Part shown: positions 1,201 to 14,822 of the stretch, one piece after another
Layout of the letters: each line of letters begins with the position of its first letter
Position numbering within the stretch: the stretch's first letter is position 1
NCBI GenBank assembly: GCA_009840625.1
Contig: VXNJ01000001.1
Coordinates: 558,001 to 622,000, forward strand
Reading direction: 5' to 3'
Length of the DNA stretch: 64,000 nucleotides
Origin: Chloroflexota bacterium
GTDB lineage: Bacteria; Chloroflexota; UBA11872; VXNJ01
The notes under the pieces: generated by a model
Told to the model about the DNA's origin: nothing
The model's input: the letters and a program-made list of their open reading frames with translations, nothing else
Database searches by the model: none
Translations under genes and position numbers: made by a program

Positions 1201-2310
1201 ATGGCGCTCAGGCTGGCGATCATCGGCGCCGGCCCGGCCGGGGCGCAGGTGATGTACCCCCCGGCGCTGGCCGGCAGCGACCGATTCGAAGTGGCCTGGG
1301 TCTACGACCCGGACCGCAAGAACAGCGCCGCGCTGGTCGACGCTATCGGCCAAGGCCGGCCGGCCGCCAGCCTGCAGGAAGCGCTCACCGATGGGGTTGA
1401 GGCGGCCATCATCGCCTCGCCGGTCCAGTTTCATCGGCCGCAGGCGATAGCCGCCTTGGAATCGGGCCTGCACGTTCTGGTTGAAAAACCGATGGCGCGC
1501 ACGCTCTCCGGATGCCGGGCGATCCAGCGGGCGGCGGCGGCCGCCGGCAGGGTCCTGATGGTCGGATTCATGAAGCGGTTCGACCGCAGCTTCGAGCGCG
1601 CCACTGAAATGGTCGCCGGTGGCGAGCTGGGAACGATGATCGAGGTCCGCTGTGATTGGTCGCACCGTTCGCCGTTTCCGGCCCACGAATCGCGAGCTCA
1701 CCCCCAAACCTGGGGCGGGACCTTCCAGGACCACGGATCGCACACGATCGACCTTTGTCGTCTCTGGCTGGGTGATATCGAGCAGGTGTCGGCCGAGATG
1801 AAGATCGCGTTCGGGGAACGCCACAACGAGGATGTCGGCGCGGCCATCTGCCTGCACGCGCAAGGCGCGATCTCAACCCACAATATTTCCAGGGTGCACA
1901 CGGGGCGGATGATGGAGAGTTACGACCTCGTAGGAACGCGCGGCCGCCTGCGGATCCAGTATTCCGGTCGGGCCAGCTACGCCTCGGCCGATCCGTTCCA
2001 GATGACGTTTTTCGGGCCCGGCGGAACGACTCGCGACCTGACGGTGCGACCGCTGGCAAACATTCGGGCCGAAATCGCCCGCAACGGTCGCTACGCCCGT
2101 GAGTTGAACCACTTTGCCGACTGCATCGCGGGCGAAGCTGAAAACCGTGCCCCGGGCGACGCCGGATCGGCCGCGGTGGAGGCAGTCAACGCAGCGTTCG
2201 CATCGGCCGCCAGCGGCGCCAAGGTCACCCTGCCGCTGCAGGTCGAGCCCGACCTGGCGGCCTTCTTCGAGGCGCTCAGGAACGGCGCCAGGGACAGGGA
2301 CCGGCGATGA
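1201..2310 (+). CDS. Gfo/Idh/MocA-family NAD(P)-dependent oxidoreductase
   Basis: Predicted cytoplasmic sugar or cyclitol dehydrogenase of 369 residues, the usual family length. An N-terminal Rossmann fold carries GAGPAG at residues 9-14, and the family signature EKP sits at 95-97 (HVLVEKPMAR), its Lys being part of the catalytic site. The C-terminal domain has GGTFQDHGSH near 172-181, where Asp and His usually complete the active site. The gene sits directly behind a sulfatase and overlaps the next gene by 4 bases (ATGA), so sulfate-ester removal followed by oxidation of the sugar is a plausible order of reactions. Substrate cannot be read from sequence. Confidence 0.9.
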   Translation: MALRLAIIGAGPAGAQVMYPPALAGSDRFEVAWVYDPDRKNSAALVDAIGQGRPAASLQEALTDGVEAAIIASPVQFHRPQAIAALESGLHVLVEKPMARTLSGCRAIQRAAAAAGRVLMVGFMKRFDRSFERATEMVAGGELGTMIEVRCDWSHRSPFPAHESRAHPQTWGGTFQDHGSHTIDLCRLWLGDIEQVSAEMKIAFGERHNEDVGAAICLHAQGAISTHNISRVHTGRMMESYDLVGTRGRLRIQYSGRASYASADPFQMTFFGPGGTTRDLTVRPLANIRAEIARNGRYARELNHFADCIAGEAENRAPGDAGSAAVEAVNAAFASAASGAKVTLPLQVEPDLAAFFEALRNGARDRDRR

Positions 2311-4067
2311 ACGGGGCTGGGTTACTCGTGCGCGGCCTGGCCGCACACGGGGTCGAGCACGTCTTCGGCCACCCCGGCCACGGCAACACCAACATTTTGG
2401 ACGCCCTCCTGGACGAGCCGGGAATCAGGTTCCACCTGGTCCGCCACGAGCAGGCCGCCGCACACATCGCCGACGGCTACGCGCGAGTCGCCGGCAAGGT
2501 CGGAGTCTGTACCGGATCGGTCGGACCGGGGGCGACCAACCTCCTGATGGGGGTTGCGACCGCCATGTCGACCTCCTCGCCGGTGCTGGCGTTGATCGGA
2601 TCTCCGATCCGGGACTGGCTGGGCCGCGGGCAGCTGCAGGAGACTTCGCGGCCCGATTCGTCGGGAATCGATCAGGCATTCATGCAGATGTACCAGCCGG
2701 TTACCAAGCGGGTCTGGTCCTGCTGGTCGACCGATCAGATCGCGCCGGCGCTGCGCAAAGCGTTCACAACCGCCCAGGTGGGAAGACCGGGGCCGGTGGC
2801 GATTGAGATCCCCTGGGACGTGCAGGCGGCGGCGGCGGCCGGGAGTGTCGAACCGCCGGATTCGGCATTGGTCCGGGCCCGTCCGCGGGCCGGAAAGTCG
2901 GAGACCGCGGCGGCGGCCAAGGCGCTGGCCGAGGCCGAATTTCCGCTGATTCTGGTAGGCAACGGGGCGCGGCGGTCCGGCGCCGCAGCCGAGGTGATCG
3001 CGCTGGCCGAGCTGCTTGGCGCACCCATTTCCTCATCGTTCGTGGCCAAGGGACTGATTCCCGAAGACCACCCGCTGAGCGTCGGTATCTGCGGATGGCT
3101 TGGCCACCCGGTCGCCCACGAGCTGATCCGCGAACACGCCGACGTGATCCTGGCCGTGGGGCACCGATTCTCGGACCAGTCCACCAGCTGGTGGACGGAA
3201 GGCCGGCCGTTCGTTCCCCAGAACAGAATCATCCAGGTCGACGTCGAACCCCGCGAAATCGCCCGGACCTGGCCGGCCGAGACGGCCCTGGTGGGCGACG
3301 CCCGGGCGGTTCTGAGCGACCTGCTCGACCGGTTGTCGGACCTGGGCGGCCGCCCGGGGGCCCCAGAATCACGCCGATTGGTCGAGCGCGCCAAATCGTC
3401 TTACAAGCTCGAGTTGCCGGATCCCGACGCCGAGCCGATGAACCCGCTGCGCATCGCCGATCAGGTCCGCCGGATCCTTCCGCGGCGATCGCTGCTTTCG
3501 ATCGACACCGGCAACCACGCCCACTATTTCTCGTTCAACTTCCCAATCCTGGAAGGCGGGGAATTCCTGAACCCGGGCGGGTGGACGCCGATGGGCTGGG
3601 GACCGACCGCGATCATCGGCGCAGCCCTGGCCAAACCAGGGCTGCCGGCAGTCTCGATCACCGGCGACGGCGGATTCCTGATGGTCTGCCAGGAGATCGG
3701 CACCGCGGTCGAGATGGGCCTGCCGATCGTCTGGCTGGTCTTCAATAACGGCGTACTGGCGGCGATCCGGGAGGGCCAGAAGGCCGATTTCGCGGGTCGC
3801 ACGATCGGTACCGAATTCCAGGTGTCCACCGACTTCGCGACTCTGGCCCGGGCGCTGGGCGCCGAGGGGTTGCGGGTGAACCGGCATTCTGAATTCGACG
3901 GGGCGTTCGAGCACGCGCTGCGGCTTGGCGGACCCTGCGTTCTGGACCTGGCGATCGATCCCGACGCCGATCACCCGCCGGTCGCCGGGTCCTGGTTCGA
4001 ACCCGGCCGCGGCGAGCCGGCCGCGCAGCCGCGCGGCGGGGAACTGCTCTACACCGGCGCCGCCTGA
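2307..4067 (+). CDS. ThDP-dependent enzyme, acetolactate synthase-like
   Basis: A 586-residue member of the pyruvate-oxidase/acetolactate-synthase family with all three domains. The N-terminal pyrimidine-binding domain has the catalytic glutamate at E48 (RHEQAA). The central domain is around residues 190-345. The C-terminal pyrophosphate-binding domain has the GDG...NN motif (GDG 453-455, NN 480-481). Length fits acetolactate synthase, but no regulatory IlvN subunit or other ilv gene lies nearby; the gene is translationally coupled to a sugar-type dehydrogenase. Known relatives include IolD-type diketone hydrolases, sulfoacetaldehyde acetyltransferase and oxalyl-CoA decarboxylase. Context favours a catabolic lyase over branched-chain amino acid synthesis, but the reaction is not assigned. 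Confidence 0.85.
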   Translation: MNGAGLLVRGLAAHGVEHVFGHPGHGNTNILDALLDEPGIRFHLVRHEQAAAHIADGYARVAGKVGVCTGSVGPGATNLLMGVATAMSTSSPVLALIGSPIRDWLGRGQLQETSRPDSSGIDQAFMQMYQPVTKRVWSCWSTDQIAPALRKAFTTAQVGRPGPVAIEIPWDVQAAAAAGSVEPPDSALVRARPRAGKSETAAAAKALAEAEFPLILVGNGARRSGAAAEVIALAELLGAPISSSFVAKGLIPEDHPLSVGICGWLGHPVAHELIREHADVILAVGHRFSDQSTSWWTEGRPFVPQNRIIQVDVEPREIARTWPAETALVGDARAVLSDLLDRLSDLGGRPGAPESRRLVERAKSSYKLELPDPDAEPMNPLRIADQVRRILPRRSLLSIDTGNHAHYFSFNFPILEGGEFLNPGGWTPMGWGPTAIIGAALAKPGLPAVSITGDGGFLMVCQEIGTAVEMGLPIVWLVFNNGVLAAIREGQKADFAGRTIGTEFQVSTDFATLARALGAEGLRVNRHSEFDGAFEHALRLGGPCVLDLAIDPDADHPPVAGSWFEPGRGEPAAQPRGGELLYTGAA

Positions 4068-4187: not shown

Positions 4188-5198
4188 ATGGTCCGAAGCT
4201 GGCAATTTGACGATTACGCAATCGACGCGCTCACTCAGGTCGAAAAAGGCCGGCCCCCGCTCGGCGAGAGCGACGTCCGCGTGGCAGTGCGCGCCGTGAG
4301 CCTGAATTACCGCGACCTCTTGGTGCTTGAGGGGTGGGTCAGCCGCGACCTGGAACTGCCGGTGGTTCCGCTGTCGGACTTTTCCGGCGACGTCATTGAC
4401 GTCGGGGCCGGCGTATCCGAGTTTTCGGCCGGTGACGGGGTCGTGAGCAACTACGTGGCCGACTGGCAGGATGGGCCGTTCCAGGACCGGTACCTGCAAA
4501 CCACGCTCGGCACCCCCGGCCCCGGCGTGGCGGCGACCGAATTGGTCCTGCCGGAAACCGCCCTGGTGGCCAAGCCGTCCAATCTCACTCACGCAGAGGG
4601 CGCTACCCTGCCGATCGCCGCTCTGACTGCCTGGTCCGGACTTCACGCCGGCGATCCGCTGGGGCCGGGAAGCACCGTGCTGGCGCTGGGCACCGGCGGG
4701 GTATCTGTTGTAGGCCTCCAAATGGCCAAGGCGATGGGCGCCCGAACCATCATCACCAGCAAGGACGACGAAAAACTGGCGACCGTGGCCGGGCTGGGTG
4801 TCGATCACGGAATCAACTATCGGACCCACCCCGAATGGGCGCGACAGGTGCGTGAAATAACCGACGGGCGGGGCGTGGACCTGGTCCTCGAGGCGGGCGG
4901 CGCACAGACCCTGAACCAGTCGCTGCGCAGCCTGCGCGCGGCCGGAACCGCGGCGCTGTTCGGAGTCTTGACCGGACCCTCCGGCGAGATCGAGACGAGG
5001 ACGATACTGGCGCGCCGCCTGAACGTCTGCGGCATTTATGTCGATTCGCGGGCAGAGTTCAAGCGCATGAACCAATTCATCGAAAAGGTCGGCTACAAAC
5101 CCTATATCGGGCAGGAGTTTGAATTCGACGGGCTGCCGGAGGCGTTTGCGGCGATGAAGAACCAGTCGCATATCGGCAAGATAGTAGCGACGGTCTGA
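4188..5198 (+). CDS. Zinc-free MDR oxidoreductase, quinone-reductase-like
   Basis: A 336-residue medium-chain dehydrogenase/reductase with a GroES-like N-terminal half and a nucleotide-binding half carrying LGTGGVSVVGLQ near residue 165. The place where zinc alcohol dehydrogenases have GHE reads PLSDFSG, and no structural-zinc Cys cluster is present, so this belongs with zinc-independent quinone or enoyl reductases. It probably reduces an electrophilic carbonyl or enone with NADPH. It lies 120 bases after the ThDP gene and 40 bases before the sulfatase-like gene at 5239, all on the same strand. The 120-base gap shows no convincing regulatory element. Confidence 0.85.
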   Translation: MVRSWQFDDYAIDALTQVEKGRPPLGESDVRVAVRAVSLNYRDLLVLEGWVSRDLELPVVPLSDFSGDVIDVGAGVSEFSAGDGVVSNYVADWQDGPFQDRYLQTTLGTPGPGVAATELVLPETALVAKPSNLTHAEGATLPIAALTAWSGLHAGDPLGPGSTVLALGTGGVSVVGLQMAKAMGARTIITSKDDEKLATVAGLGVDHGINYRTHPEWARQVREITDGRGVDLVLEAGGAQTLNQSLRSLRAAGTAALFGVLTGPSGEIETRTILARRLNVCGIYVDSRAEFKRMNQFIEKVGYKPYIGQEFEFDGLPEAFAAMKNQSHIGKIVATV

Positions 5199-5238: not shown

Positions 5239-6723
5239 ATGAACGTCGTACTCATCATGAACGACACCTGGCGCTACGACCACGTGCGCGCCAACGGCAA
5301 CGACTGGATCTCGACCCCGAACCTAGACGGGTTTGCAGCCGAATCGGCGGTGTTCGACCGTTCCTACATCGGATCGTTTGCGACCATACCCTGCCGTCAC
5401 GATTTGATGAAAGGCCGCTACGGCGAGCCCCTGCACTACTGGCGCCCGCTGCAGTGGGACTGCCTGACGTTGCCCGAAGTGCTGCGCGCCAACGGCTACG
5501 TCACGATGCTGATCAACGACACCCCGCACATGATCAATTACGGTTTCGGTTTTGACCGGCCGTTCCACGCTTGGCAAATGATTCGCGGCAATGAAGTAGA
5601 CCGGTTTCGCACCGACTGGTTCCGCGAATGGAGGCTCGGCAACATGGACAAATTTCGCACGAGCGCCGGGATGGCCCAGTTTTACCGCCAGACCCACGAC
5701 AAGTTCCTCGAGGAACAGTTCTTCGCTCCGATGGTCATGGATGCGGCCTGCACCTGGCTGGAGCGCAATCACAACCACGACAAGTTCTTTCTCTGGGTCG
5801 ACTCCTTCGACCCCCACGAACCCTGGGATCCGCCGCAGCACTACCGGGACATGTACGCACCCGACTACGACGGGGTGGAAGTGGTCTGGCCGGCCTATTG
5901 CCGATCCTCGGACGTGTACACCCCCGAAGAGCAGGAGCACATCGGAAAGCTCTTTGCGGCCGAATGCACGATGTGCGACACCCACATCGGGCGCGTGCTG
6001 ACCACGATCGACAACCTGGGCCTGCGCGAGAACACGGTCGTGGTGATCATGTCCGATCACGGCCACTACTTCGGCGAGCACGACCAGCAGTCCAAGTCCG
6101 GCCCACTATACGAAGAGGTCTCACATCAGATCCTGATGATCAGGCACCCGCACGGAATAGGGTCAGGCGAACGCTTTCAGGCCCTTACCCAGCCGGCCGA
6201 TTTCGCCCCCACGGTCCTTGAAATGCTCGGAATCGAGGCCCCGGCCGAAATGGGTATCCAGGGCAGATCGCTGCTGCCGCAGATGGCCGGTTCCAACGAG
6301 ATTCATCGTCCGGTGGCCGTGTCCGGCACGTTCCCGTACGAAATCCTGCCGGTCGGCGATCCGACCTACGCCGGGCGAAGAGTCCCGGCCCCAATGGTGG
6401 AACCGGGCTGGACCCCGCTGACAGTCACCGGCCCGGAGTACGCGTTGATCGCCTACCCGGAACGGGAGCGCAACGAGGTTTATCACCTGCCCAGCGATCC
6501 GGGCATGACCAGCAACATCGTGGACGCAAACCGCGAACGCGAGCAGGAACTACACCGGGAGTTGATGGCCTTCCTGGAGACCCACGACAGCCCGGAATGG
6601 ATCAAGCGGATCTACGGCGACGGTCCGGCCGGGGTGCAGGTTCCCGACATCGACGAACACCTCAAGCTGGTGCGTCAACGCGGCATGCCGTTCACCGTCA
6701 CCCTGGACGGTTCGGTCCTCTGA
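5239..6723 (+). CDS. Sulfatase-like hydrolase with Thr at the nucleophile position
   Basis: A full-length member of the alkaline phosphatase/sulfatase superfamily, 494 residues from ATG 5239. That start is preceded by GGGAG; a TTG two codons upstream is the alternative. The N-terminal metal site reads IMNDTWRYDH. At the catalytic Cys/Ser-x-Pro-x-Arg motif it reads T49-I-P-C-R53, followed by HDLMKGR in place of the usual LxTGR. Threonine cannot be converted to formylglycine, so classical sulfatase chemistry is unlikely. The C-terminal metal site MSDHGHYFGEHD is intact. Thr nucleophiles are known elsewhere in this superfamily, for example in nucleotide pyrophosphatases and phosphopentomutases. 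A phospho- or other ester hydrolase is possible. No signal peptide is visible. Confidence 0.88.
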   Translation: MNVVLIMNDTWRYDHVRANGNDWISTPNLDGFAAESAVFDRSYIGSFATIPCRHDLMKGRYGEPLHYWRPLQWDCLTLPEVLRANGYVTMLINDTPHMINYGFGFDRPFHAWQMIRGNEVDRFRTDWFREWRLGNMDKFRTSAGMAQFYRQTHDKFLEEQFFAPMVMDAACTWLERNHNHDKFFLWVDSFDPHEPWDPPQHYRDMYAPDYDGVEVVWPAYCRSSDVYTPEEQEHIGKLFAAECTMCDTHIGRVLTTIDNLGLRENTVVVIMSDHGHYFGEHDQQSKSGPLYEEVSHQILMIRHPHGIGSGERFQALTQPADFAPTVLEMLGIEAPAEMGIQGRSLLPQMAGSNEIHRPVAVSGTFPYEILPVGDPTYAGRRVPAPMVEPGWTPLTVTGPEYALIAYPERERNEVYHLPSDPGMTSNIVDANREREQELHRELMAFLETHDSPEWIKRIYGDGPAGVQVPDIDEHLKLVRQRGMPFTVTLDGSVL

Positions 6724-6784
6724 ATTCGCCAAACCCAGCGTTGCCAATACCGGTAATACCTCCGACCACTCTTAGGAATTCACC

Positions 6785-8263
6785 TTGAACGTCATCCTGA
6801 TCATGAACGACACGCTGCGTTACGACCACGTCGGCGCCAACGGGAACCCCTGGATCTCAACTCCAAACCTGGACGCGTTCGCGGCCGAGGCGGCCGTATT
6901 CGACAACAACCACCTCTGCTCGTTCCCCACGGTTCCCAATCGCCATGAAATGATGAAGGGCCGCCACGGCAACCCCTTCCAGGCGTGGCGACCGCTGGAG
7001 TGGGGGGCGATGACGTTGCCCAAGGCCCTGCGACTAGCCGGCTACGAAACGATGTTCATCCACGACACCCCGCATCTGGCCAACTTCGGGTACGGGTTCG
7101 ACCGGCCGTTTTCCGGCTGGGAATTCGTCCGCGGGAACGAGGCCGACCGCTGGCGGACCGACTATTTCTCAGAGTTGCAGGTTCCCGGCGGCGGCAAGTT
7201 CACCTGGGACCAGCAGGCCACCCATGAATACCGCAACTACCGCCACATGCGACGCGAGGAGGACCAATGCGTAGCCCGGGTGATGTCGGCCGCCTGCGAG
7301 TGGCTGGATCACAACGCCGGGCACGAGAAGTTCTTCCTCTGGATCGATTCCTTCGATCCCCACGAGCCGTGGGACCCGCCCCAGCACTACGTCGACATGT
7401 ACGATCCCGGTTACGAAGGCGTGAAGATCACCTGGCCGTCTTTTGGGGAAGTCGCCGACAAGTTCAGTCCGGCCGAGCAGCGCAACGTCAAGGCCCTGTA
7501 CGCCGGCGAGGTGACGCTGATGGACCGCTGGATCGGCCGGGTGCTGGAGAAGATCGACGACCTGGGGCTGCGCGAGAAAACCGCCGTGATCATCATGTCC
7601 GACCACGGATTCGATTTCTTCGAGCACGGCTACGTCGGCAAGCGGGCAATCTATCCCGAGGTGGTTCGCACCGTCCAGATGGTCCGCCTTCCGGACGGAG
7701 CGGGCGCCGGGAGCCGGATCGCCCAACTTACCCAGCACCCAGACTTTGCGCCTTCGGTATTCGACCTGACCGGAGTAGAGGTTCCGGAGGGGATGGACAT
7801 ACAGGGCAGATCCTGGGTCCCGCTGCTGAGCGGCGGCGGGTACGAGGCACGGACGGCAACCGTTTCCGGCAACGGTCCTTCCTACTTTGACGCGAGAAGC
7901 CCGTTCGCCGCGGCCTTGGCGGGACGGTTCACGGGCTGGTCGCCGCTACAGGTGACCGACGGACGCTGGTGGCTGGTTGACAACGCCGACCCGGGGATGC
8001 GCGAACTCTATGACGTCGACGCCGATCCGGATACCCAGGTCAATCTGTACGGCCAGGAGCCCGATCATTACGCGCGGTTGCACGCAGAGCTGATTTCATT
8101 CCTGGAGCAGTCGCAGGCCCCCGAAATTGCTATCAAACTGTTCCGCGACGGGCCGGACGGGATCGATCCGAAGCAGGGTGCCGCGGTCTTTGCCCCGGGC
8201 ATGTTCCCGGATGGAGTTCCAATGAACACCGTCCGCCCCGGCAACGTCGTCCGACGAGACTGA
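6785..8263 (+). CDS. Sulfatase-like hydrolase, tandem paralogue with Thr nucleophile
   Basis: A 492-residue paralogue of the preceding gene, starting at TTG 6785 with AGGAA six bases upstream. The two proteins match closely through the N-terminal 130 residues, including NDTxRYDH, GNxWISTPNLD and RPF. The nucleophile motif is T49-V-P-N-R53 followed by HEMMKGR, so this copy also lacks the Cys/Ser needed for formylglycine. The second metal motif is MSDHGFDFFEHG, and the SFDPHEPWDPP block is present near residue 185. Conservation of Thr in both copies argues against a random loss. The pair probably arose by duplication and may act on related substrates. Probably co-transcribed with its neighbours. 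Confidence 0.88.
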   Translation: MNVILIMNDTLRYDHVGANGNPWISTPNLDAFAAEAAVFDNNHLCSFPTVPNRHEMMKGRHGNPFQAWRPLEWGAMTLPKALRLAGYETMFIHDTPHLANFGYGFDRPFSGWEFVRGNEADRWRTDYFSELQVPGGGKFTWDQQATHEYRNYRHMRREEDQCVARVMSAACEWLDHNAGHEKFFLWIDSFDPHEPWDPPQHYVDMYDPGYEGVKITWPSFGEVADKFSPAEQRNVKALYAGEVTLMDRWIGRVLEKIDDLGLREKTAVIIMSDHGFDFFEHGYVGKRAIYPEVVRTVQMVRLPDGAGAGSRIAQLTQHPDFAPSVFDLTGVEVPEGMDIQGRSWVPLLSGGGYEARTATVSGNGPSYFDARSPFAAALAGRFTGWSPLQVTDGRWWLVDNADPGMRELYDVDADPDTQVNLYGQEPDHYARLHAELISFLEQSQAPEIAIKLFRDGPDGIDPKQGAAVFAPGMFPDGVPMNTVRPGNVVRRD

Positions 8264-8300: not shown

Positions 8301-9803
8301 ATGCGCATCATTTATTTCGATATCGATTCGCTGCGGCCGGCGCACCTGGGCTGCTACGGGTATTCGCGGCCGACCTCGCCTACCGTGGACGCGTTGGCCG
8401 CCGAAGGAGTGCGCTTCGACGGCTGCTATGGTTCCGACCTGCCGTGCAATCCGTCCCGGGCGGCCCTATTCTCGGGCCGTTTCGGAATTCTCAACGGGGT
8501 GGTCGGCCACAACGGGCCGGCCCAGCACATGCGCTATCCGGGCGAGGGCCACCGCCACGATCCCGAGCGGCCCATGTTCATGCGGCACCTCCAGCACGCC
8601 GGCTACAACACCGTCTCATTTTCCGGTTTTGCCCAGCGGCACATGTCCTGGTGGTTCACCGCCGGGTTCACCGAATTCCACGGCAACAAGCTCCCGGGCG
8701 GGCTCGAATCGGCCGATGACGTGAACGGACTGGTCGAACCCTGGCTGCAGGACAACGGCCAGAGCGACAACTGGTTCCTGCACGTAAATTACTGGGATGT
8801 CCACCATCCCTATCGGGCCCCCGACCAATATTGGGACCGGGTGCAGGCCGCCGGTCCCGGACTGGAGTGGCCCGACGACGCAAAAATCCGCGCCGACTAC
8901 GAGCGCTACTACGGCCCCCGCTCGGCACGCGACTGGGGCATCATGGAGCGGCAATGGGCCGGTAGGGCCTATTTCGAGCGGTTTCCGCGGATGCGGGCTC
9001 AGATCCGCAATCGCGAAGACCTGCAGGCCTTTGTCGATGGACACGACGCGGGCATGGCCTACGTCGACGACGCCATCGCGCGGATCCTTGACATCCTGCG
9101 CGAGCTCGGGATTTACGAGGAAACCGCGATCATAGTCTCCTCCGACCACGGCGAATCGGTTGCCGAACAGGGCCTATATTTCGAGCACGGCAACGCATCC
9201 GAGGGGACCGCCCACCAGCCGCTGGTTATCCGCTGGCCGGGCGTGACCGACGGCGCGCGCGGCTCCTCCTACGACGGGCTGCTTTACCAGCTCGACCTGG
9301 TCCCCACCGTAGCCGAATTACTCGATCTGGAGATCCCATCCGGCTGGAGCGGGGAGAGTTTTGGCCAGGCCCTGCGCGGCGAGTCTTGGCAGGGACGCGA
9401 CCACCTGGTGTGGGGAACCGGGATATTTACGTTCCAGCGGGCGGTCCGGACTCGCCGGCACCTATTCATCCGGACCCTGCATCCGGGTTGCCTGCCGGTC
9501 GATCCGATTTCGCTATTCGACATGGAGAAAGACCCCCGGCAGGAACATAACCTGGCCGCCAGCGACCCGCAGGTAACGGCGGACATGGATCATCTGCTTT
9601 CCAACTGGTGGTCCGACCACTGCACCGGCCCGGGGAGCGTGCGCGACCCATTCCAGGACATGATGGACGTTACCCCGGACACCTACATTCCGCTTGAGGC
9701 GGTGCTGGCCCACCTGGAAGAAGACGGTCGCCCCGAACAGGCCCAGGACCTGCGACTCCGGCGCGGTCTCCTAGCCGAGCAAGCAGATGGCCGGCCGTTC
9801 TGA
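8301..9803 (+). CDS. Sulfatase, Cys-type
   Basis: A 500-residue sulfatase with the canonical formylglycine motif C49-N-P-S-R53 followed by AALFSGR. The first metal site is FDIDSLRPAHLGCYG, and the second metal-binding stretch is SSDHGESVAEQGLYFEHG. The start ATG 8301 places the nucleophile at residue 49, the same position as in the three related genes nearby. It would need a formylglycine-generating enzyme; none is encoded in this window. The stop overlaps the DsbA-like gene by 17 bases. Sulfated carbohydrate or aryl sulfate is the likely substrate; there is no visible signal peptide, so it may act in the cytoplasm. Confidence 0.92.
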   Translation: MRIIYFDIDSLRPAHLGCYGYSRPTSPTVDALAAEGVRFDGCYGSDLPCNPSRAALFSGRFGILNGVVGHNGPAQHMRYPGEGHRHDPERPMFMRHLQHAGYNTVSFSGFAQRHMSWWFTAGFTEFHGNKLPGGLESADDVNGLVEPWLQDNGQSDNWFLHVNYWDVHHPYRAPDQYWDRVQAAGPGLEWPDDAKIRADYERYYGPRSARDWGIMERQWAGRAYFERFPRMRAQIRNREDLQAFVDGHDAGMAYVDDAIARILDILRELGIYEETAIIVSSDHGESVAEQGLYFEHGNASEGTAHQPLVIRWPGVTDGARGSSYDGLLYQLDLVPTVAELLDLEIPSGWSGESFGQALRGESWQGRDHLVWGTGIFTFQRAVRTRRHLFIRTLHPGCLPVDPISLFDMEKDPRQEHNLAASDPQVTADMDHLLSNWWSDHCTGPGSVRDPFQDMMDVTPDTYIPLEAVLAHLEEDGRPEQAQDLRLRRGLLAEQADGRPF

Positions 9804-10680
9804 CGCGCGGCAGCGCCGGCGCCGGCGCATGGCCGAAGTGCGAACTCGCGCCGCCGCCGATCAGACCGGGGCCGCAGCGCCGCCGCCCGATCAATCTCGT
9901 GCAGAGCCGCGCCGGCTGCGCCGGCGCGACGTATTCCTAGGGACCGGAGCGGGCATAGTGGCCGGCGGCCTGCTGGGCGGACTGAACTGGTTCGACGCCC
10001 AATCGCGGCAGAGCGTCCCGGAGCCGATTATTGATGCATCAACGCCCGCGGCCCCGGTTGCCAGCGTGCCGGAACCGGACGCCGAACCCGAATCGGGCGA
10101 AAAACCGTTCATCGCCCGGTCGCCCGAAGAACTCGATGGACACCGGCATGCGACGTTGTCGCACCGCCTTGGCGATCCGGGCGCGCCGCTTTTGATCGTC
10201 GAGTATTTCTCCTACACCTGTCCGCACTGCATCACCTTTGCCGCGCAGATCGAACCCCAGGTCAAAGAGTCATACATCGACACCGGACAAGCCGTGCTGG
10301 TGGCCCGGCACCGTCCGTTCGATACCAACGCGATCAGCGCTTCGCGAGTGGCGATTGCAGCCGCCCAGCAGGACCCGGCCGCGTTCTGGCCGATGCACTA
10401 CCGGCTGCTGAACCAGATTCGCCAGATGGCCGCGAACGGCTACAGCTGGGAGGACTTCGAGCCGATCGGCAATGAATTCGGCCTGGACGGCAAACTGCTG
10501 GTCGAAGACGCCCAGTCGGATCGAACGTCCGAAATCCTGCAGGCCAACATCTCCGAGGCCTCCGGTCTCGAGGTAAACGGGACTCCCACGTTCTTTCTCA
10601 ACGGCAAGCGCAAGGTGGGCTCCGGATCCTTGAACGAATTTCTGGCCGCAATCGAGGAAGCGCTGGGCAGCGCCCGATGA
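9787..10680 (+). CDS. DsbA-like membrane-anchored thioredoxin-fold protein
   Basis: A 297-residue disulfide oxidoreductase. An Arg-rich cytoplasmic N-terminus is followed by a single hydrophobic anchor (about residues 50-68), then a Pro/Glu-rich linker (75-108) and a thioredoxin-fold domain. The active site is C145-P-H-C148, and the cis-Pro loop reads NGTPTFFLNG. DsbA-type proteins oxidise cysteines in exported proteins. The stop codon overlaps the VKOR gene by 4 bases, giving a donor and recycling partner in one transcript. The start overlaps the end of the upstream sulfatase gene. Confidence 0.92.
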   Translation: MAGRSDARQRRRRRMAEVRTRAAADQTGAAAPPPDQSRAEPRRLRRRDVFLGTGAGIVAGGLLGGLNWFDAQSRQSVPEPIIDASTPAAPVASVPEPDAEPESGEKPFIARSPEELDGHRHATLSHRLGDPGAPLLIVEYFSYTCPHCITFAAQIEPQVKESYIDTGQAVLVARHRPFDTNAISASRVAIAAAQQDPAAFWPMHYRLLNQIRQMAANGYSWEDFEPIGNEFGLDGKLLVEDAQSDRTSEILQANISEASGLEVNGTPTFFLNGKRKVGSGSLNEFLAAIEEALGSAR

Positions 10681-11126
10681 GTTTCGTGGATTCGCTTACC
10701 TACCGCTACCTGACGGCCCTGTTGGCCGTGGTCGGACTGGCGGTCGCGGCGTACCTCAGCGCGTCCGACCTCGCCGGCGAGGCGACAGTCTGCATTGAGG
10801 GCGGCGGCTGCGAGGCGGTAACGCAAAGCGCCTGGGGCGAGCTTTTCGGAGCCCCGGTGGCGCTGCTGGGAGTGGCTGCCTACGCGCTGATCGTGCTGGC
10901 GGCGGCGGCCGAGTTGTTCTGGCGCGACAAGGTGCACCCTGACTCGACGCTGGCCCTGGTGCTCCTGACCGCGGCCGGATCGACGTTTTCGGTTTACCTG
11001 ACCATCGTCTCGGCGACCCAGATCAACAACTTCTGCATTTGGTGCATATCGTCGCTGCTTATCCTGCTGCTGCTCTTCGGATTGAGCCTGAATAGAGCGC
11101 TGCGCCTGGCCGCCATCGACAGTTAG
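10677..11126 (+). CDS. VKOR-family quinone-linked disulfide reductase
   Basis: A 149-residue membrane protein with four hydrophobic helices and the four cysteines of the family. The loop pair is C39 and C45; the active CxxC pair is C120-I-W-C123. Bacterial VKOR homologues re-oxidise DsbA-like proteins and pass electrons to quinone, replacing DsbB. The 4-base overlap with the DsbA-like gene supports that partnership, and menaquinone genes at 33256-34942 supply a likely acceptor. It ends 19 bases before the convergent SDR gene; no clear terminator was found in that gap. Confidence 0.93.
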   Translation: MSFVDSLTYRYLTALLAVVGLAVAAYLSASDLAGEATVCIEGGGCEAVTQSAWGELFGAPVALLGVAAYALIVLAAAAELFWRDKVHPDSTLALVLLTAAGSTFSVYLTIVSATQINNFCIWCISSLLILLLLFGLSLNRALRLAAIDS

Positions 11127-11920: not shown

Positions 11921-13387
11921 TCAGACCTCCCAGTCCGGCCAGTGCCGCAACCGGGTCGCGATCCGCTCGGCCGCATGGCCGCGACCCTGCTCGCGCAGGT
12001 AATCAATCCAGTATTCATACGGCACGTATTTGAACGGGCCCGACTCAATCACCTTCGGCATCGGGTCGCCCGGATGGCCCGGGCGACCCGCCTGGCGATG
12101 GGTCCATTCGGTTAAGAGGTGGTCGAGTTCGGCCACCACATCCGGGCGTTCGGTGGCCAGGTTGTTGGTCTGGCGCGGATCGCAACGCATGTCGTAAAGA
12201 CTGAGCGGGGGGTAATCGAATAACCCGGGGTGGTACGTCCGGGTCAGGTACCAGTCCCGGGTCCTGACCGAGCGCTGGCAAGCGTACAGGCCGTGCGAAA
12301 GCACCAGGTGATCGCGGCTCGAAAATTCCCCGGCGGCCCCGAGCAGCGGCGCCAGGCTGGCTCCGTCCCACCCGGATTGGGGGTCTATACCGGCCAAGTC
12401 GCACAGCGTCGGGGCAATGTCCAGGCTGTAGACGAATTCGTCGCAGACGGCGCCCTCGGCCACCCGCCCGGGCCACGAGATGATCAGCGGGATATGGTGC
12501 GGGGCCTCGTAACCGTTGCAGTGATCGCCGTAGATGCCGAATTCACCCTGGGCTTCGCCGTGGTCGGCGGTGATGATGATGCACGTATCGTCCAGGACCC
12601 CTTGGTCCTCCAGCACTTCCAGCAACTGCCCGATGTGGTAATCGACGTAGGCAATCGATCCGTCGTAGCCGTTAATCCACTCCTCGAAATCGCTCAGGCG
12701 GTCAAAGCGCGTATCCGGCACTGTCCCGGTCTCGGGATCGCGGTAGGGGTTCACGGTTGGCGGCGTGAACGGCCCGGAGAGGTCCTGCTGGGCATCAAGA
12801 GTTGCCTGATCGGGCCAGTCCGGCGGGGGTTGCCCGTCGAATTTGGTCATCCACTCCGGTGGCACCCGGTAGCGCCGGTGCGGATCCCAGTAATTTACGT
12901 GCAGCAGCCAATCGTCTTTCTGGCAGATCCGCTCAAGCACCGGCAGGGCGGCGGCGTTGACCTCATCGGCGGTCTCGTTGCCGCGCTTGAGGGTGTGGTG
13001 ATGGTATTCGCGGAACCCCGAAGTGTGCCAGAAGGCATGATGGCGGTCGGCAAACGACGAAACCGAAGCCGTGTAATACCCGTTGACGAGGAAATTCCTG
13101 GCCATTGTCAGGGTCAGGCCGCCGGCCCGCTCGAGGTGGATGTCTGCCGGCAGCCGGTATTCGGACCCCGGCCCCCAATGGGTCACCACTCCGTTGTTGA
13201 TGCCGAACATGCCCCCGAACAGCGAGGCCCGGCCCGGCACGCAGGGGGAGTCGGAAACATAGCAGCTATCGAATCGCGTGCCGCGGGCGGCGATCGAATC
13301 GATATTGGGTGAGGTGTCGCGGTGATACCCGTAGCACCCCAGGTGGTCGGGGCGCTGCGAATCTATGTCAATCAGCAGGACGCGCAC
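11921..13387 (-). CDS. Sulfatase, Cys-type
   Basis: A 488-residue sulfatase from GTG 13387, which has GGAGG eight bases upstream; an earlier in-frame start at 13471 would add 28 poorly conserved residues. The nucleophile motif is C49-V-P-G-R53 and the first metal site is LIDIDSQRPDHLGCYG. The second metal site is ITADHGEAQGEFGIYGDH. It closely resembles the gene at 8301 in layout, and both have the nucleophile at residue 49. It overlaps the upstream sulfatase gene by 20 bases, so translation is likely coupled. Requires formylglycine maturation by an enzyme encoded elsewhere. Confidence 0.9.
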   Translation of the reverse strand: MRVLLIDIDSQRPDHLGCYGYHRDTSPNIDSIAARGTRFDSCYVSDSPCVPGRASLFGGMFGINNGVVTHWGPGSEYRLPADIHLERAGGLTLTMARNFLVNGYYTASVSSFADRHHAFWHTSGFREYHHHTLKRGNETADEVNAAALPVLERICQKDDWLLHVNYWDPHRRYRVPPEWMTKFDGQPPPDWPDQATLDAQQDLSGPFTPPTVNPYRDPETGTVPDTRFDRLSDFEEWINGYDGSIAYVDYHIGQLLEVLEDQGVLDDTCIIITADHGEAQGEFGIYGDHCNGYEAPHHIPLIISWPGRVAEGAVCDEFVYSLDIAPTLCDLAGIDPQSGWDGASLAPLLGAAGEFSSRDHLVLSHGLYACQRSVRTRDWYLTRTYHPGLFDYPPLSLYDMRCDPRQTNNLATERPDVVAELDHLLTEWTHRQAGRPGHPGDPMPKVIESGPFKYVPYEYWIDYLREQGRGHAAERIATRLRHWPDWEV

Positions 13388-14822
13388 TGCGGGCTCCTCC
13401 GATGCGGGGGTCTTTGTCGCGCGGGACGACGTCGCCGGTGGCAAGAAACCAGTCGGTGAGCCGACCGGCAAGTTCGAGTCGGACCGATTGATGGTCGGGA
13501 GAGTCGATCAGGTTCACCTGCTCGCCCGGGTCCGCAACCAGGTCGTACAGCTCGTCGCGGTCGCGCAGGCGACGCACGTACTTGTGCGTGGTCGTGCGAA
13601 TCGCCGCCGCCTTAGCTACCGAATCCGGGTTGTCGGTCTGGATTCGGCCCTTCTGGTAGTAGACGTGGTCGGTCCCGCCCAAGCCGTCCCACTTGAGTTC
13701 CACCGCCTGGCGCTCGAAATGGTGGTGGCCGCCTTCGACGAATACCGCGTCCTTGTGGTCGAGCGCTTGCCCGCGTATCAACGGCAACAGGCTTTTGCCG
13801 TACTGGTCGTGTTCAAGCGGAACGCCGGCGATGTCGAGGATGGTGGGGGTCAGGTCGAGCGTTTCGCAGAGGTGCGGGATCATCGCGGCGCGCTCGTTGG
13901 TCGGCAATTTGATGGTCAGCGGCACCCGCAGCAGCACGTCCTCGAATCCGCTGGGCCACTTCTCGACCAGGCCGTAGTCGCCGGCATAGTCGCCGTGATC
14001 GGAGAAGAAAAGCACCGCCGCCTCGTCCCAGAATCCATTCCTCTCCAGCGATTCGCGGAGCTCGCCGAACTGGTCGTCGAGCCGCGAGCACATACCCCAG
14101 TAGGTGGCGATCAACTCCCGCCAGTCCGCCGCGTTGAGGCGATCCAGCCCATAGGAGCGGTGCATCTCCTGGTGATGGATGGGGGCATCGCCGCGCGGTG
14201 GCATGGGGTCGGGTACCCGGTCACGGTCGTGCATCGAAAAGTAGGGTTCCTCGCACCAGTAAGGGCAGTGCGGGAAGATCAGCGGCAGGTACAGGCAGAA
14301 CGGCTCCGGCGGATTCGATTCGAGGAAGCGGATTGCGCCGTCGATCCACTGACGATCGGTATCGTTCGAAGCCGCGTCCGGGCGTTGACCGAAGTAGAAG
14401 CTGCGGAAGTGCTTATGCTCCGGCGGCCAAGGGTTGGCGGTGAACTTGCGGTAGTCGAAATTGATTTGGCCCTCGTGCGAAATGCTGTCGGGGAATGACT
14501 CCTGCGCCAGGAGGTCATTCTTGCCCCACATCTCGACGTGGTAGCCGGCCTGCTTGAGGTACTTGAACACGTTCGGCTGGTGCGGTCGCAGCATGTGCCA
14601 GAGAGTGCGGTGGCCATTTACATGCGGCGGCCATCCGGTGAACATGCAGATCCGCGACGGGGTGCAGACCGTGTGATTGACGAAAAAATGCGAAAACGGA
14701 GCGTACTCGTCTGCAAAGCGGTCAAAATTTGGAGTGTTAATGACCGAATTTCCGGCGTACCCAACACAGTCCCAGCGCATCTCGTCGGGCATGAAGATGA
14801 TGATGTTGGGGTGCTTGGGCAT
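13368..14822 (-). CDS. Sulfatase, choline-sulfatase/arylsulfatase-like, Cys-type
   Basis: A 484-residue sulfatase more distant from the other copies here. The first metal site is MPDEMRWDCVGYAGN, the nucleophile motif is C53-T-P-S-R57 followed by ICMFTGW, and the second metal site is FSDHGDYAGDYGLVEKW. The C-terminal region has ELYDLVADPGEQVNL, typical of this family. It is the first gene of the minus-strand trio and is divergent from the lipoprotein gene at 14895, so its promoter should lie within 14823-14894. I saw no clean promoter hexamers there. Confidence 0.92.
   Translation of the reverse strand: MPKHPNIIIFMPDEMRWDCVGYAGNSVINTPNFDRFADEYAPFSHFFVNHTVCTPSRICMFTGWPPHVNGHRTLWHMLRPHQPNVFKYLKQAGYHVEMWGKNDLLAQESFPDSISHEGQINFDYRKFTANPWPPEHKHFRSFYFGQRPDAASNDTDRQWIDGAIRFLESNPPEPFCLYLPLIFPHCPYWCEEPYFSMHDRDRVPDPMPPRGDAPIHHQEMHRSYGLDRLNAADWRELIATYWGMCSRLDDQFGELRESLERNGFWDEAAVLFFSDHGDYAGDYGLVEKWPSGFEDVLLRVPLTIKLPTNERAAMIPHLCETLDLTPTILDIAGVPLEHDQYGKSLLPLIRGQALDHKDAVFVEGGHHHFERQAVELKWDGLGGTDHVYYQKGRIQTDNPDSVAKAAAIRTTTHKYVRRLRDRDELYDLVADPGEQVNLIDSPDHQSVRLELAGRLTDWFLATGDVVPRDKDPRIGGARSARPAD

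Follow-up and report, generated by a model that had tools for sequence, protein, structure and literature searches.

A clade of sulfatase-fold proteins from Chloroflexota with an invariant threonine at the formylglycine position

The formylglycine (FGly) sulfatases of SulfAtlas family S1 are defined by a cysteine or serine at the FGly position, in the motif C/S-x-P/A-x-R (PMC5066984). The window analysed here, the whole stretch of 64,000 nucleotides of a Chloroflexota contig, contains two tandem genes, T1 and T2, whose products resemble sulfatases and have threonine at that position. Are these proteins enzymes, and on what chemistry would they rely? An initial annotation, made from the sequence of the window, had described both as sulfatase-like with T-x-P-x-R; their PF00884 matches and the Thr49 codons given below agree with that description.

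1 to 1197, + strand: T3, 3' part of a Thr-type sulfatase-fold enzyme, 398 aa (PF00884, E=1.9e-22; in the Thr clade)
1201 to 2310, + strand: Gfo/Idh/MocA oxidoreductase, co-oriented with T3 and 3 bases 3' of it (PF01408/PF22725)
2307 to 4067, + strand: thiamine-pyrophosphate enzyme, acetolactate-synthase-like (PF02776/PF00205/PF02775; under the NCBIfam equivalog cut-offs)
4188 to 5198, + strand: zinc-type alcohol/quinone dehydrogenase family protein (NCBIfam TIGR02824 and others, under cut-off)
5239 to 6723, + strand: T1, Thr-type sulfatase-fold enzyme, 494 aa (PF00884, E=7.3e-33)
5383 to 5385, + strand: Thr49 codon of T1, ACC, at the FGly position (motif context YIGSFATIPCRHDLMKGRYG)
6785 to 8263, + strand: T2, Thr-type sulfatase-fold enzyme, 492 aa, TTG start, tandem paralogue of T1 (PF00884, E=9.9e-38)
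6929 to 6931, + strand: Thr49 codon of T2, ACG (motif context LCSFPTVPNRHEMMKGRHG)
8301 to 9803, + strand: C1, Cys-type sulfatase (LPCNPSRAALFSGR), 37 bases 3' of T2, outside the DxxH superclade
9787 to 10680, + strand: DsbA/thioredoxin-like protein, overlapping the end of C1 (PF13462/PF01323)
10677 to 11126, + strand: VKOR family protein (PF07884)
11921 to 13471, - strand: C2, Cys-type sulfatase (SPCVPGRASLFGGM), for comparison (PF00884)
13368 to 14822, - strand: C3, Cys-type sulfatase (TVCTPSRICMFTGW), for comparison (PF00884)

The nine genes from T3 to the VKOR gene form a single series on the same strand and either overlap or are separated by less than about 125 bases. The 5' part of T3 lies upstream in the genome, where the full gene (L036:726-2195) reads ADALPTIPARTALFTGN and has the motif LPTIPARTALFTGN (T-I-P-A-R); T3 is therefore the third Thr member that had been suspected in the truncated gene at 1-1197. 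The four true sulfatases counted by the same annotation among the neighbours are in fact three, the Cys-type C1, C2 and C3. The Gfo/Idh/MocA protein has a weak likeness to inositol 2-dehydrogenase, under the cut-off of that model. Gene order is partly kept in related Chloroflexota contigs (L041, L042 and L043); L043 has an enolase-superfamily gene between T2 and C1, and L041 has a similar gene at the same place. Large sets of sulfatase and enolase paralogues were reported earlier from SAR202 Chloroflexi (PMC6946804). This context points to a sugar-like or polyol ester being broken down in the cytosol.

Two details of these loci are recorded here. The disulfide-forming pair at 9787-11126 (DsbA-like plus VKOR) stands beside apparently cytosolic sulfatases. 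The T1 paralogue at L041:9409-10948 stops early, in a frame of 378 aa, and the rest may be in the next frame; a frameshift or assembly error is likely.

T1, T2 and T3 score 114.6, 130.6 and 80.4 bits against PF00884, whose curated cut-off is 25 bits, and the family is matched at E<=0.001 in 55 of 55 clade members. T1 and T2 are 49% identical, and both have C-terminal SGSH_C matches. T1 starts with MNVVLIMND and has no apparent signal peptide; its key residues are Asp9, Thr10, Thr49, Arg53, Asp94, His193, Glu194, Asp273, His274 and Lys286. An AlphaFold2 model based on 55 clade sequences (pLDDT 92.9, pTM 0.94) has the sulfatase fold. Its top PDB matches in Foldseek are S1 sulfatases, a Mn-dependent E. 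faecium arylsulfatase and phosphonate monoester hydrolases, with TM about 0.67-0.70. The fold search, run on one of the comparisons that the initial annotation had proposed, puts FGly sulfatases and phosphonate monoester hydrolases first, and NPP is absent from the best 50 matches. By fold and profile, the AS/PMH group (RlPMH, BcPMH, EfAS) counts among the closest solved structures; it shares a His rather than an Asn as metal ligand, but its FGly is made from Cys. The proteins studied here have Thr at this site, and the score against NF045661 (PehA-type) is 85.8 bits, where the cut-off is 900.

Homologues numbering 159 were aligned from the window's genome, 400 sampled Chloroflexota genomes and plasmid records. 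The tree split this alignment into a "DxxH" superclade and other sulfatases, and the superclade has a support of 99 in a tree calculated without the motif columns. At the nucleophile site the superclade has Thr in 71 sequences, Cys in 25 and Ser in none. TxxSH-type Thr proteins (e.g. L125 and L128) form a separate branch and are excluded from the counts. Thr49 (71/71) is one of 17 invariant columns in the Thr clade, in alignments with a mean column identity of 25%. Arg53, Asp94, His193, Glu194, Asp273, His274 and Lys286 are each present in all 71 members, Asp9 in 70 of 70 with one gap, and position 188 is Asp in 69 and Glu in two. At position 51, some members have Gln, Glu or Leu.

A hold-out set of 40 further loci, picked by profile score and fetched afterwards, has Thr in 34 of 34 Thr-clade proteins (33 new and one repeat of L044) and Cys in 6 of 6 Cys-clade proteins; one TxxSH-type outgroup was put aside. 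Full-length scores part the two clades, with at least 393 bits for Thr members and at most 360 bits for Cys members. The change to Thr, from which the initial annotation had suggested a conserved alternative chemistry, is more than a chance match, being constant in the 71 aligned and the 33 new hold-out members; Cys or Ser homologues were sought inside the Thr clade and none was found, the nearest Cys homologues forming a separate clade. Beyond the Chloroflexota, a single case of the Thr type came to light, on a Martelella plasmid (L137).

Unusual sequences at this site were noted in two places. Three tandem Thr-type genes (L034:1185-5463, - strand, G000:C4) have T-x-Q/E-x-R, in which the usual Pro is missing. 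In L193 (G033:C7), a sulfatase-like protein outside the studied clade, the nucleophile site reads STTGARR and the GKxH region is altered.

The metal motifs had been reported as kept, which holds for Asp9, Asp273 and His274; the second position is Thr10, where Gln or Asp is usual, and Asp94 stands in place of the GKxH Lys that binds sulfate. In the S1 signature G-Y-x-[TSCV]-x3-G-K, the column of this Lys is Asp in 71 of 71 aligned members (Ser in one hold-out member), and elsewhere it is Lys in 41 of 49 other Cys sulfatases, in which the Glu194 column is variable. MKGR in place of LxTGR, the other change that had been pointed out, is found in the T1/T2 subclade only; elsewhere most Thr-type homologues keep TGR, and MKGR was rejected as a defining trait.

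The Thr is conserved throughout a large clade and is not a product of decay. The loss of both the FGly residue and the sulfate-binding Lys might be expected of sulfatase-like proteins that have lost catalysis and serve in binding or regulation, but the 71 diverse sequences show no variation in the metal ligands or in the leaving-group pair, the residue is fixed as Thr and not as Ala, Gly or Val, and there are several paralogues per genome. We regard dead proteins as very improbable.

Active-site geometry was argued by homology to choline sulfatase (PMC5870055). Asp273, His274, Lys286, His193, Arg53 and Asp9 correspond to Asp296, His297, Lys309, His201, Arg58 and Asp14 of SmCS (Arg58 by motif; the others are described in PMC5870055). 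The Thr clade thus shares with FGly S1 sulfatases such as SmCS the fold, PF00884 and SGSH_C, the metal Asp/Asp/His, the His-Lys leaving-group pair and the motif Arg. It differs in Thr for Cys/Ser, Asp94 for Lys102 and the added Glu194, and it has an invariant Trp68 in the region of SmCS Asn75.

A Thr nucleophile is also known from NPP phosphodiesterases and from EptA/MCR-1 and LtaS. The nucleophile-side Zn set of NPP3 is D168, T206, D373 and H374 (PMC6052110), and judged by sequence only, Asp9, Thr49, Asp273 and His274 supply the same Asp/Thr/Asp/His site with a Thr nucleophile, whereas the second NPP metal site (Asp-x3-His and a later His) is not clearly present: the clade has Asp188-x4-His193, with other spacing, and no invariant later His (H483 in NPP3) was found, its nearest counterpart being the invariant Lys286. 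Against PF01663, the NPP family, T1 scores under the cut-off and T2 over it, with a best stretch of 41 residues. The Zn set of MCR-1 is E246, T285, D465 and H466, and its Thr is phosphorylated during catalysis (PMC5175174). The Asp/Thr/Asp/His set equals this Zn1 set save Asp for Glu, and the NPP second-metal ligands are not all present, so the clade could consist of transferases like LtaS or EptA/MCR-1, in which Thr would hand on a phosphoryl-alcohol group to some acceptor that is not water. EptA/MCR-1 and LtaS share with the clade the Thr nucleophile, the (Glu/Asp)/Thr/Asp/His metal site and the superfamily, but they are membrane proteins of envelope synthesis, whereas the T1-T3 reading frames begin at the catalytic domain and have no membrane part. 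The gene context is catabolic, the nearest structures are hydrolases, and none of the LtaS/EptA NCBIfam cut-offs is reached. LtaS-like members are moreover described as T-x-N-x-E, in contrast to T-x-P-x-R. A transferase is accordingly quite unlikely in our estimation.

The closest relatives of the Thr clade are the "DxxH" Cys proteins (C-M-P-A-R; L038, E. faecium, Streptomyces, Rhizobium and haloarchaea), which form one branch with a support of 99. Cys is present in 38 of 38 (25 aligned, 6 hold-out and 7 plasmid-borne). The seven plasmid-borne relatives, from E. raffinosus, E. faecium, Streptomyces, Haladaptatus, Halocatena, Rhizobium and Arthrobacter, are all Cys-type DxxH. One Cys-type DxxH gene (G158:C2:766326-767459; L109 and L173) carries an in-frame TAG stop. 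In a column scan up to T1 residue 479, the nucleophile alone is near-fixed yet different between the Thr and Cys clades; a looser threshold of 75% adds just position 64 (Pro versus Leu). Asp94, Glu194, Trp68 and Arg116-Gly117 are common to both clades and are therefore not specific to the Thr type. Asp94 and Glu194 were rejected as proof of a phosphodiesterase, since the Cys sister clade carries both. Trees hint that the Cys clade is nested inside the Thr clade, but a single Thr clade is compatible with an AU test (p=0.63), so that either Thr or Cys may have come first.

The Cys sister genes are located near anSME in G279, G357 and G363 (nearest 2-5 kb) and near FGE in Chelativorans, E. faecium and Streptomyces, six genomes or plasmids together, and the E. 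faecium locus has a TauE/SafE sulfite exporter gene in addition to FGE. At the other Cys sister loci examined no maturase is annotated nearby, and two genomes with sister genes (G355 and G158) have no maturase match. Because the nucleophile alone separates the clades sharply and the E. faecium sister lies near FGE and the sulfite exporter, the pocket common to both clades may be a sulfate pocket.

A sulfatase independent of FGly is the alternative that these observations favor. Thr would attack the sulfur of a sulfate ester, water would clear the sulfo-Thr by way of the extra acidic residues, and the substrates would be those of the Cys sister. T1-T3 also share one gene run with the Cys-type sulfatase C1. 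Choline sulfatase whose Cys is left unmodified still turns over sulfate, though slowly, so that FGly can strictly be dispensed with, but FGly boosts turnover 5-2500-fold in comparable enzymes (PMC6189696). About 100 homologues never have Cys or Ser, including those of a genome whose FGE looks complete. We consider a Thr sulfatase unlikely, and the most serious of the alternatives.

The window's genome has 46 PF00884 genes. Seven of them are of the Thr type, comprising T1, T2, T3, a gene at C14 and a tandem of three at C4. L038 is the single member of the Cys sister clade, and those of the others that were read have Cys. There is one FGE, with a CHDSYC motif that we take to be the FGE active-site pair. 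Judged by profile score, about 34 of the 41 sampled genomes of the class have Thr-type genes. None was seen near a maturase when coordinates were compared by eye. Two nearly complete genomes, G081 (95%) and G105 (94%), have Thr-type genes, and no Cys-type sulfatase, PF03781 protein or anSME match was found in either, which argues that Thr-type enzymes do not need FGly, although a maturase may have been missed or be of an unknown type. The absence of FGE was dropped as a general argument, since genomes of genus g7 (G033, G069, G109 and G149) are likewise without a recognisable FGE or a strong anSME match. The three examined (G033, G069 and G109) carry many ordinary Cys-type sulfatases despite this, so g7 was left out and G081 and G105 are the only clean cases. 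The g7 sulfatases possibly have an unknown maturase or are unmodified Cys enzymes. Their loci are L147-L149 and L151-L197, and the PF03781 proteins L147 and L148 end in RGGCW... without CHDSYC. E. coli is said to have an unidentified FGly maturation system (PMC6189696), so that a genome without FGE may still make FGly.

Retention of T-x-P-x-R would preserve the frame recognised by maturases, as expected if Thr were converted to a ketone-bearing residue that acts like FGly. Oxidation of Thr would give a ketone and not FGly, and such a residue has never been observed (PMC5066984); moreover, position 51 varies as given above, and Thr-type genes occur in genomes without a detected maturase. This conversion is extremely improbable.

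The best explanation is that the T1-T3 clade consists of active, FGly-independent, metal-dependent esterases with a Thr nucleophile, for which a sugar or polyol carrying a phosphorus ester is the most likely substrate, and we judge the chances of this explanation to be about even. We infer the use of the catalytic Thr, the metal set, the clearing step and the substrate as follows. One divalent metal held by Asp9, Thr49, Asp273 and His274 would activate the Thr hydroxyl, and unmodified Thr49 would attack the central atom of the ester while His193 and Lys286 assist the leaving group. Water would clear the Thr-bound intermediate, perhaps aided by the extra acidic residues Asp94, Asp188 and Glu194. 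FGly sulfatases clear theirs by hemiacetal cleavage (PMC5870055); a phosphorus ester is preferred here because an ordinary side-chain ester of Thr cannot use that route. The genes adjoin sugar-acid-type catabolic genes, and the substrate would most likely be a small sugar-like or polyol compound that bears a phosphodiester, phosphonate or phosphate group and is processed in the cytosol. For mechanism and ALTERNATIVES, the assignment as a phosphorus-ester hydrolase could fall either way. The initial annotation's interpretation as a whole, an alternative chemistry with a Thr nucleophile, is partly supported.

Thr is present at this site in 30 of the 59 PF00884 seed sequences, and T-x-N-x-E proteins have been discussed and kept out of the sulfatases, evidence being wanting (PMC5066984). 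A literature search that covered few subscription papers found no description of a T-x-P-x-R clade. A further proposal, which we hold to be less likely than not, is that the clade is a large branch of the sulfatase fold that has gone undescribed and relies on plain Thr as nucleophile, set off from its FGly sister essentially by that residue, and possibly made up of FGly-free sulfate-ester hydrolases. The Thr-type enzymes are probably active esterases of different chemistry that are wrongly counted as sulfatases in databases. Because 7 of 46 PF00884 genes here are Thr-type, as are genes in about 34 of 41 genomes of the class, the sulfatase counts used to infer use of sulfated polysaccharides by such Chloroflexota are probably inflated, and another ester-cleaving activity is probably overlooked. 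If the proposal is true, the Thr and Cys sister branches would let FGly chemistry be compared with Thr chemistry in natural enzymes that differ essentially at one residue. Should the enzymes prove active, the reason why sulfatases need formylglycine would become directly testable on the two paired clades.
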